Shown piece by piece: positions 208 to 28,493 of a DNA stretch of 41,533 bases. Position numbers and translations under genes: made by a program. The notes below the pieces were generated by a model. That model did no database searches, was not told the DNA's origin, and saw only the letters and a program-made list of their open reading frames with translations. This DNA comes from Candidatus Aminicenantes bacterium (lineage in GTDB: Bacteria > Acidobacteriota > Aminicenantia > Aminicenantales > UBA4085). Where the stretch lies: assembly GCA_026393855.1 (NCBI GenBank), contig JAPKZJ010000037.1, forward strand, positions 1 to 41,533, written 5' to 3'. The first letter of the stretch is position 1. Every line of letters starts with the position of its first letter.

Positions 208-288
208 TCGCGCTCCTTCCGTCAGAAGTTGCCCCTTTTATCCTCTTTTTCACCGGTTTTGTCAAAATACCTACTTCTGTTTATCAGG

Positions 289-462
289 TTCTTGCCCAAT
301 CCCGAGGAGGGTGGTTCGGAGTGCCGTCCCGGCAATACTTTGATAGCCCTCGCCAGGATAATTGCTTCAACAATCCTCGCGAGGACGGCTTCGGCGTCTT
401 CTCGCAATTTCGCCGTTGGCCGACACCCCGAACCACCCTGATTTCCCCGGGCTTGGGCGAAG
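289..462. repeat. Palindromic repeat family 1, copy A (about 174 bp)
   Basis: The two ends are inverted copies. The left end carries GGGTGGTTCGGAGTG (near 309-323) and the right end CACCCCGAACCACCCT (424-439). An outer pair, CTTGCCCAAT (291-300) and GCTTGGGCGAAG (451-462), extends the match. The 30 bases at 408-437 match the reverse complement of 20385-20414 at about 27 of 30 positions, so this copy is homologous to the element at 20365-20795. The motif ATTGCTTCAAC (361-371) recurs in the element at 12680-12991. No open frame of a transposase is present. It is best read as a non-autonomous palindromic element. Confidence 0.75.
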
Positions 463-509
463 ATTAAAAGAAAGTGGCGGTATCGAGCATTCCGAGAAGC
501 TCTTTCTCT

Positions 510-732
510 GGGGCGAGGGGTGTGAGGGTGAGCGCCGATGCGGAAAATTCGTTGCGTGTTCTCGTTTTTCGAGGGGATTCGGCCCGAAAAGAGGCCGAAC
601 GGCGAGGATGTCTGAGTGGGCCGTACAAAGACCGTAAAATCGATGCGGGACGCGAGTTCCGAGCCGCCGAGAAAAACGAGACGCCACGACGCAAAAATTT
701 CCGCCAGAGCGAACCCCACACCCCGAGCCCCC
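510..732 (+). repeat. Structured palindromic repeat family 2, copy 1 (candidate structured RNA)
   Basis: This 223-nt stretch folds end to end. GGGGC (510-514) pairs with GCCCC (727-731), GGGGTGTG (517-524) with CACACCCC (717-724), and the region around 539-570 pairs with 668-704. An internal hairpin TTCGGCC (578-584)/GGCCGAA (593-599) sits near the middle. A second copy at 27927-28146 has the same layout but different stem sequences that still pair. Both copies have the same orientation. Where pairs differ, several are G-U on the plus strand and would be A-C on the minus strand, which favours a plus-strand RNA. The hydrogenase promoter follows 60 bp downstream. Function is unknown. Confidence 0.75.
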
Positions 733-12679: not shown

Positions 12680-12991
12680 TCCCGGGGAGAAAAGCGGTTC
12701 GAAGTGCACCGTTGGGGGCAACGGTATCATGCCGCGTGAACAGTTCTTTCTACAGCCGTGATAGCGACGAGAGAACAACGCAGCAAGACCGGCCAACGGC
12801 CAGGCTTTGCGCGGTCCTCGACGGGACGATTGCTTCAACGGTCCCCGCGAGGGCGAAATTGCGAGGGCGGCGTCTTTTTCCACAACTCTCTAAGGGAACC
12901 TGGCTTTGCAGGCGCCGAGGAGAGCTGTGGGAAAAGACGAAAAGAGCCCGAAGCCGCCGGGACGGCACCCCGAACCGCCCTCCCCGGGAAT
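12680..12991. repeat. Palindromic repeat family 1, copy B (about 312 bp)
   Basis: The ends are inverted copies: TCCCGGGGAG...GCGGTTCG (12680-12701) against CCCCGAACCGCCCTCCCCGG (12968-12987). Inside, ACCGTTGGGGGCAACGGT (12708-12725) is itself a hairpin, and its exact reverse complement is found at 20748-20765 in copy C. A second internal inverted pair is GTCTTTTTCCACAACTCTC (12871-12889) with GAGAGCTGTGGGAAAAGAC (12920-12938), 17 of 19 matching. ATTGCTTCAAC (12829-12839) is shared with copy A. The nested pairing suggests selection for folding of DNA or RNA. No transposase is encoded. Confidence 0.75.
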
Positions 12992-13030
12992 TAAGAATGG
13001 ACCTTTAGCGCTAGCTCCCGCAGGTAAAGA

Positions 13031-20201: not shown

Positions 20202-20364
20202 TTCGCCCCTAATTCTTGATTTTTTCTGCCCGATAAGATGCAAGTCAAGCGGATAAGGTTTCTATGAGGGGGTGGCAGGCTGTGGGCCGTTAGATGGAAA
20301 ACCCGATGATGGGTCCCCCGTCAGGGGAGCCCCTTCGTCCCCTAGTTTTTATAATTTGATCTTT

Positions 20365-20795
20365 ACCCAATTTCGGGAAGACCAGGCGGTTTGGGGTATC
20401 GGCCAACGGCGAAACCGCGAGGGCGACGCCTTTTTCCATAGCTCTCTGAGGGAAGCCAATCCTCGCGGGGACTTTCGAAGCGACGTCCCTTCGAGGACTG
20501 CGAAGCGCTGCGGGCGCCGAGGGATGTTTGAGCACGCAACCATCATTGGCAACGAGACTGAGTGGGAGGTCGTGCAAGACCGAGAGATCGAGTATGCGGA
20601 GTTCCGCCCTCGCGGAGACTATCGAAGCGACGTCCCTACGAGGACTGCGAAGCGCTGGAGGCGCCGAGCGGATTGGCCGGGACGATCAATGCGCCGTCGA
20701 TATTGTTCGGATCAAGAATTTCGGGAAATCCGATCACGGCGCATAGCACCGTTGCCCCCAACGGTGACCCTGAACCGCCCTTCCCGGAATTGGGC
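20365..20795. repeat. Palindromic repeat family 1, copy C (about 431 bp, inverted relative to A and B)
   Basis: The inverted ends are CCCAATTTCGGGAAG...GGCGGTTTGGGGT (20366-20397) and ACCCTGAACCGCCCTTCCCG (20767-20786) followed by GAATTGGGC. Bases 20385-20414 match the right end of copy A on the opposite strand, and 20748-20765 is the exact reverse complement of a hairpin in copy B. Copy C also holds an internal direct repeat of about 54 bp (20471-20524 and 20618-20671, sharing CGAAGCGACGTCCCT and CGAGGACTGCGAAGCGCTG), which explains its greater length. No protein is encoded. Confidence 0.75.
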
Positions 20796-27810: not shown

Positions 27811-27926
27811 GGGGTAGTTCTCCGGCTTCAATATAGAAGCCGCCGAGCTAAAAATCAAACCGACTTTTTATTGTTGGGGTTCTTTCTTAAAGCGATGTTT
27901 TGCCTTTAAACGAAGCCTTCCACAAA

Positions 27927-28146
27927 GGCGCCGGCGATGGGGGTGAGCGCTTATGCGGAAATATCGCCGCGTGTTCTCGTTTTTCGCGGGTATCCCGCTC
28001 GGAAAGAAGCGGGACGGCGAGGATGTCTGAGCGGGCTGTACAAACACCGTTAGATCAATGCGGAACGCGAGTTCCGAGCCGCCGAGAAAAGCGAGACGCC
28101 ACGGCGCAAATATTTACGCATAGCGAACCCCCATCGCCGGAGCCCC
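27927..28146 (+). repeat. Structured palindromic repeat family 2, copy 2 (candidate structured RNA)
   Basis: This element aligns over its whole length with 510-732. Strictly conserved blocks include GTGTTCTCGTTTTTCG, GGCGAGGATGTCTGAG and ACGCGAGTTCCGAGCCGCCG. The outer stem is CCGGCGATGGGGGT (27931-27944) with ACCCCCATCGCCGG (28127-28140), 14 perfect pairs, although copy 1 has a different sequence there. The central hairpin is TCCCGCT (27993-27999)/AGCGGGA (28008-28014), again different from copy 1 but still paired. A promoter for a small gene begins seven bases after it, much as copy 1 precedes the hydrogenase promoter. Confidence 0.78.
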
Positions 28147-28152
28147 TCCTAG

Positions 28153-28180
28153 TTGACTTTTTTGCGCCATCGGCTACAAT
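28153..28180 (+). promoter_or_regulatory. Promoter of the 39-residue membrane protein gene
   Basis: TTGACT (28153-28158) and TACAAT (28175-28180) are separated by 16 bases. Transcription should start near 28187, about 11 bases before the ATG at 28198, too short for a normal Shine-Dalgarno site. Confidence 0.55.
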
Positions 28181-28374: not shown

Positions 28375-28493
28375 AATAAACCCGCTCGATGCCCTGGGCT
28401 AAAGCCCGGGGTATTTGCAGGGTTAATACTGAGCGGCGCTTATGACCCCGATTTGAAAATCGGGGTTCTAGCGCCGCGAATGTATAATTAGGC
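28375..28493. repeat. Repeat family 3, copy 2 (inverted relative to copy 1)
   Basis: The 119 bases match the reverse complement of 11929-12081 without its internal insertion of about 40 bases. This copy contains a near-perfect hairpin ACCCCGATTT/AAATCGGGGT around 28444-28467 and the pair GAGCGGCGCTTAT/TAGCGCCGCG. Its right end includes TATAAT (28483-28488), which may serve as a -10 box for the gene starting at 28537. It encodes no protein. Confidence 0.75.

Follow-up and report, generated by a model that had tools for sequence, protein, structure and literature searches.

Two palindromic elements in the window

The stretch of DNA analysed here, contig JAPKZJ010000037.1 of a Candidatus Aminicenantes bacterium (41,533 nucleotides in full, referred to as the window), contains two copies of a palindromic element that is part of a large family of short mobile repeats, not catalogued before, from uncultured sediment bacteria. 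Both copies lie on the + strand and are members of what we call subfamily 1. Copy 1 extends from outer stem to outer stem over positions 508-732 (core match at 547-695, E 1.5e-29), copy 2 over positions 27923-28147 (core match at 27962-28110, E 5.3e-31). An initial reading based on the letters alone (below, the sequence-only reading) had proposed that the copies can be aligned end to end in identical orientation, which the alignment bears out, and the outer stem and inner hairpin that it had drawn are present in both. The outer stems of subfamily 1 have the form GGGC-GA-GGGG / CCCC-GA-GCCC. Fold energies of -109.7 kcal/mol (z -5.8) and -120.2 kcal/mol (z -7.1) were calculated for copies 1 and 2, respectively, and none of 200 shuffles that preserve dinucleotides reached the stability of the window copies.

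The structured core of copy 1 occupies positions 562-679 of the + strand, as defined by the family structure with pair counts on 32 and 53 sequences. It is composed of the helices P1 (562-570/671-679), P2, a hairpin (578-584/593-599), P3 (600-603 and 606-607/659-660 and 663-666) and P4 (616-625/644-653), all on the + strand. With the family structure applied, each window copy forms 30 of the 32 core pairs. Seven core pairs differ between the two copies, three of the 32 on both sides; as this pair of copies alone proves little, the case for paired change rests on the family. The earlier argument that CGGGA/TTCCG reveals G-U pairing on one strand did not hold up, since the near family shows only one-sided changes at this place and the pairing is absent from the wider family.

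The structured core and its family

By DNA similarity, some 14 more or less complete copies, several of them with inserted hairpins, were found in the host genome, with diverged ones also in congeners and further genera of the host family. The covariance model R1, built from 32 copies and spanning the 150 positions of the core, matches 59 core copies in the host genome, the majority of which form a second subfamily with different arms. R1 also finds copies in 10 of the 12 genomes from the host family and in 49 of the 94 from the host order. When a broader model, R2, was run on a draw of 247 Acidobacteriota genomes, five had a match at E <= 1e-4, all from the host order; R2 further finds 47 copies in the complete Aminicenantes genome CP070750.1, 1-6 in each of five Omnitrophota genomes and 10-18 in three Bacteroidales genomes. 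The exact pattern of the P3 strand occurs in at least 120 stretches in named genomes, chiefly of Aminicenantes, Omnitrophota and Bacteroidales, and a few elsewhere (such as those in Zoogloea, Mesorhizobium and Rhodococcus) look like chance matches. Searches of viral contigs, plasmids and phages found no copy. No Rfam family, HEARO included, scored at or above its gathering score, and low-threshold searches gave only chance-level matches on the element, and a known RNA family was rejected as its identity after these searches; in the open-access literature, we found no earlier description of the family. One near-identical copy each was seen in bins assigned to other phyla (L155, Zixibacteria; L210, Syntrophobacteria; L228, Bacillota; L191, Eubacteriales); these are more likely misplaced contigs in metagenome bins, or possibly the result of horizontal transfer. 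The Bacteroidales copies L348 and L349 (Rikenellaceae UBA12406) are arranged as tandem units, in pairs and short clusters with a spacing of about 381 bp.

Among the 32 near copies, 91.5% of the cells are paired and 21 of 32 pairs show double changes, with a covariation score of 0.367 compared to 0.135 +/- 0.009 after shuffling. Over 53 copies from three phyla, P1 to P4 are 93.5% paired, with double changes at 30 of 32 pairs and a covariation score of 0.517, compared to 0.146 +/- 0.008 for shuffled and at most 0.106 for slid partners. Individual core pairs show up to five or six pair types. The covariation in the proposed helices hence exceeds the controls, and it supports the pairing of CGGGACGC with the upstream GYGNNCCG in P4 as well as of TTCC with GGA in P3. 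The block GGCGAGGATGTCTGAG, previously taken as unpaired, is so in part, while its GGC and GG sit in P3. Neither of the two outcomes named beforehand as speaking against the fold, many copies without covariation or a known family of miniature inverted-repeat transposable elements (MITEs) or repetitive extragenic palindromic (REP) sequences that drifts freely, occurred in the family.

Conservation is not confined to the helices. Columns conserved at 90% or more make up 29 of the 63 unpaired positions compared to 10 of the 57 paired ones; the unpaired ones include the UGUYUGA and GAGU blocks at the P4 foot. Slots of tandem G.A pairs swap with Watson-Crick pairs (P3, GA/GA in 27 and GA/UC in 5; P4, UC/GA in 17 and GA/GA in 10), and P4 can be as small as a GC-GNA-GC mini-hairpin or exceed 80 nt. 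A canonical kink-turn was considered at the P4 foot, where tandem G.A pairs are found; with two extra bases on the other strand, it is not claimed.

Outside the Bacteroidota, 57 of 60 copies, drawn from five groups, have a core that folds better on the + strand, with a mean advantage of about 4 to 7 kcal/mol. The arms are about even between the strands in most groups, subfamily 2 being the exception. Conserved unpaired positions and a preference for one strand, as looked for in a structured RNA, are both observed, the latter with the exception of the Bacteroidota. We read this as a core that was shaped over long times by selection on the + strand RNA, with arms that behave as DNA palindromes; RNA-level selection on the core is strongly suggested by these comparisons. 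Template-switch repair could hold the arms complementary without selection, but it would not hold the core mismatches and loops. The proposal of an RNA is thereby narrowed to the core, with its strand preference and conserved loops, whereas the long arms act as symmetric DNA palindromes.

Mobility and genomic placement

In elements of another family of the host order, the terminal repeat GGTTCTCTTCCATTTTGTG is found as a pair at a distance of 268 bp, or of 400-540 bp where a second palindrome sits within the element. Terminal inverted repeats paired at a fixed distance were found in the genomes G044, G005 and G058, and terminal inverted repeats also at the ends of subfamily 2 and of the Omnitrophota elements. 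For elements with the terminal repeat GGTTCTCTTCC, the flanking 8-mers match at 7-8 of 8 positions in 16 of 22 cases, compared to 23 of 462 control pairs (5%). Target duplications were further observed for 4 of 16 subfamily 2 elements (1 of 240 controls) and for 2 of 5 Omnitrophota elements with a similar GGTTC end (0 of 20 controls). The duplication in the relatives has a fixed length of 8 bp. The core-less element L276 has kept its ends, with a target duplication matching at 7 of 8 positions. In G044, two contig ends carry fragments of an ISL3-family transposase (DDE_Tnp_ISL3) behind the same terminal repeat, and thus an autonomous partner with the same ends. From the terminal repeats, the 8-bp duplications and the matching transposase, we conclude that the relatives are non-autonomous elements of the ISL3 type.

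In subfamily 1, to which the window copies belong, the two outer arms complement each other, and the left flank is semi-conserved and common to different copies. Copy 1, together with a neighbouring relic, is absent from the same locus in G001 and G002, and at the locus of copy 2 only a left-arm stub remains in G002. Mobility is well supported for the relatives, and for the window copies we infer it. A target duplication of subfamily 1 that embeds the promoter (TTGAC flank) was rejected, as within one copy the left flank does not match the right one, and different copies have the left flank in common. A target rule of the IS605 type, with a conserved tetra- or pentanucleotide flank and no duplication as in IS200/IS605 and in REP sequences with their associated tyrosine transposases, is not supported by the relatives with clear ends, which show varying 8-mer duplications. 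The copy L108 (CP070825.1) is flanked by an imperfect direct repeat of about 25 bp, and its left arm, of the TTTGTCCCAAAG type, has a promoter-like TTGACA-17-TATAAA reading into the element.

The sequence-only reading had placed a promoter just downstream of both copies. For copy 2 this is accurate, as a promoter with the motif TTGACT-16-TACAAT (28153-28180, + strand) abuts the element and lies outside it; this promoter also stands before the same gene in G001, G002, G005 and G011. At copy 1, the promoter of the downstream gene (TTGACA-18-TATATT, 792-821, + strand) stands 60 nt off and is conserved in congeners without the element. Since congeners without the full element at the locus have both of them, the promoters belong to the neighbouring genes and were discarded as parts of the element. 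At promoters that carry the element in the window genome, relatives have GC-rich palindromes that lack the core: in G001 upstream of hslV (L296), in G002 upstream of ftsY (L295) and in G005 at the locus of copy 2 (L264). These may be derivatives of the element or independent hairpins.

Neighbouring genes were called with a simple codon score. Copies of subfamily 1 frequently stop just a few bases short of the -35 box of the gene that follows, and those of subfamily 2 frequently occupy the space between two convergent genes, directly abutting a stop codon. The orientation relative to the neighbours is mixed in CP070750.1 and in G025. The target 8-mers of the relatives are A+T-rich, which in a G+C-rich genome would favour promoter and 3' regions. 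The simplest account of the placement is this preference together with the loss of insertions that break genes; the tight spacing to the -35 box is left partly unexplained by it.

The window also holds three damaged relatives from subfamily 2. A core-less relic at 285-464 (- strand) is arranged head to head with copy 1 and shares 83-87% identity with the arms of the subfamily 2 elements L097 and L100; it has kept its arms, with another hairpin in place of the core, and this stretch is repeated in G002. An element at 12790-13003 (+ strand) has lost P3 and P4, as seen by reading the sequence around an R2 match at 12868-12943 (E 6.2e-6 over the window). In a third, at 20345-20680 (+ strand; R2 match at 20424-20636, E 0.002 over the window), the sequence shows extra small palindromes inserted beside P2 and P3. 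Such small palindromic modules (e.g. GGTCGCTTCGCAGTCC..GGCG and CCTCGCGAGGAC..GTCC) are nested in the stems of L005, L010-L013, L097 and L100 and at 20400-20660 of the window. A separate dispersed repeat, about 110 bp long and containing two hairpins (CCCTGGGCTAAAGCCCGGGG, CCCCGATTTGAAAATCGGGG), is located at 28375-28485 and has dozens of copies in the congener G002.

Interpretation and known systems

The conserved structured RNA or folded single-stranded DNA element of the sequence-only reading is retained in its conserved fold, which shows true covariation, and is amended in that the element is also mobile, high-copy and MITE-like. On the sequence data, we consider it likely that it is a non-autonomous, MITE-like mobile element of the ISL3 type that carries a conserved structured RNA domain as its payload. 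Such an element would have a structured core in the middle, with long complementary arms and terminal inverted repeats on either side; the arms are best interpreted as palindromes at the DNA level. An ISL3-family transposase acting in trans would move the copies of the wider family and leave the 8-bp target duplications, and the window copies presumably arrived in the same way. The payload would be the + strand RNA domain from P1 to P4, with its tandem G.A pairs and a fixed internal loop of UGUYUGA opposite GAGU at the P4 foot. The core may be transcribed, probably via read-through from host genes, and the folded RNA may be kept since a protein of the host or of the element itself recognises it and promotes the survival or spread of the element. 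More tentatively, the core could represent an unrecognised class of structured bacterial RNA of Aminicenantes, Omnitrophota and Bacteroidales, which rides several unrelated transposon ends and has an RNA-level role, e.g. in protein binding, that benefits the element or the host. An RNA gene with a branched core and fixed loops would then travel as cargo of DNA transposons and keep covarying across three phyla under changing arms and transposon ends. Most small mobile repeats that have an RNA fold are limited to a single genus or family. The element is not in Rfam although it reaches tens of copies per genome, and R1 and R2 make it searchable, for example for its transcription in existing metatranscriptomes.

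Several observations weigh against an ISL3-type element with an RNA payload. Of the Bacteroidota cores, only one in six, all near-identical copies, folds better on the + strand. An asymmetry between G.U and A.C within the subfamilies would have served as proof of RNA and was tested; it was not found, as single-sided changes yield about as many G.T as A.C mismatches with the prediction-strand bias balanced, which points to recent drift without RNA-strand constraint. The alignment of the 53 copies (A5) was fitted to R1 and leans towards the structure, whereas A2 was aligned by MAFFT, free of structure. The Omnitrophota and Bacteroidota copies were fetched with the pattern of the P3 3' strand, inflating the conservation there (GAGUUMCGCAG..GCCGA); the UGUYUGA block falls outside this pattern, and its conservation was not imposed. 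The flanks of subfamily 1 copies showed no clear target duplication when compared, and searches of the host genome and of the sampled relatives G001, G002, G006, G009 and G040 found no ISL3 transposase. In the host genome, without an ISL3 gene, the copies may hence be relics.

The balanced mismatches are also what a purely DNA-level palindromic MITE would show, in which template switching or conversion between the arms (quasipalindrome correction) rewrites both sides without selection on RNA, and the lack of strand preference of the arms in most groups and the frequency of core-less and nested derivatives fit it as well. This mechanism predicts perfected palindromes, however, whereas tandem G.A mismatches and an asymmetric internal loop have been kept from phylum to phylum. 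It also leaves unexplained both the strand preference of the core and loops that are more conserved than stems; overall we regard it as unlikely.

We see still less reason to take the element for a cis-acting regulatory or insulating hairpin near -35 boxes or 3' ends, such as a bidirectional terminator or promoter insulator, which seems very improbable. Its appeal comes from the placement described above, with subfamily 1 usually ending a few bases upstream of a -35 box, subfamily 2 often between convergent genes and smaller palindromes at the same promoters in relatives; yet congeners have the same promoters without the element, the orientation is mixed in other genomes, the A+T-rich targets together with selection against gene disruption can account for the placement, and the placement gives no reason for the core to be conserved. 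A conserved structured RNA domain on mobile elements with at least four different kinds of ends could also recall a guide-like or recombinase-bound RNA that serves the transposition of its carrier in the manner of omega RNA/HEARO or bridge RNA. To this we give hardly any credence: the transposase with matching ends is ISL3, a DDE enzyme, which is not known to use RNA, neither HEARO nor another Rfam family matches, and no variable loop matching a target was identified.

Among known systems, ISL3-family insertion sequences and the MITEs derived from them share with the relatives the terminal repeat GGTTCTCTTCCATTTTGTG, common with a DDE_Tnp_ISL3 gene, and the 8-bp duplication. A typical MITE, however, is an internal deletion of an autonomous parent, whereas the core described here has no counterpart seen in the ISL3 fragments and is found with other ends too. 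The HEARO or IscB omega RNA is likewise structured, about 200 nt long and located on mobile elements, with many copies lacking an open reading frame; in contrast to it, the family has no Rfam match, and no HNH/IscB gene was seen in the copies read. Conservation of RNA structure is known from bcr1. The bcr repeats of the Bacillus cereus group resemble the family as dispersed repeats of 100-400 bp with dozens of copies and mobile-element features, bcr1 averaging 39 per strain (PMC6542083). They are restricted to a single species group and are associated with TTTAT motifs, while the core of this family extends over three phyla, in the best case with ISL3-type ends and 8-bp duplications. ERIC, Correia/NEMIS and CIR, the last with a fold conserved in two genera (PMC2229807), are also intergenic and non-autonomous with stable RNA folds, several of them with terminal inverted repeats and target duplications (for a systematic survey of small repeats, see PMC2267715). 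They are mostly long hairpins in related genera, whereas this family has a branched P1-P4 core with conserved loops across phyla and differing ends and arms. In kind, the element thus stands with the bcr, ERIC, Correia and CIR repeats, and it is set apart by a branched core that is found across phyla under different transposon ends.
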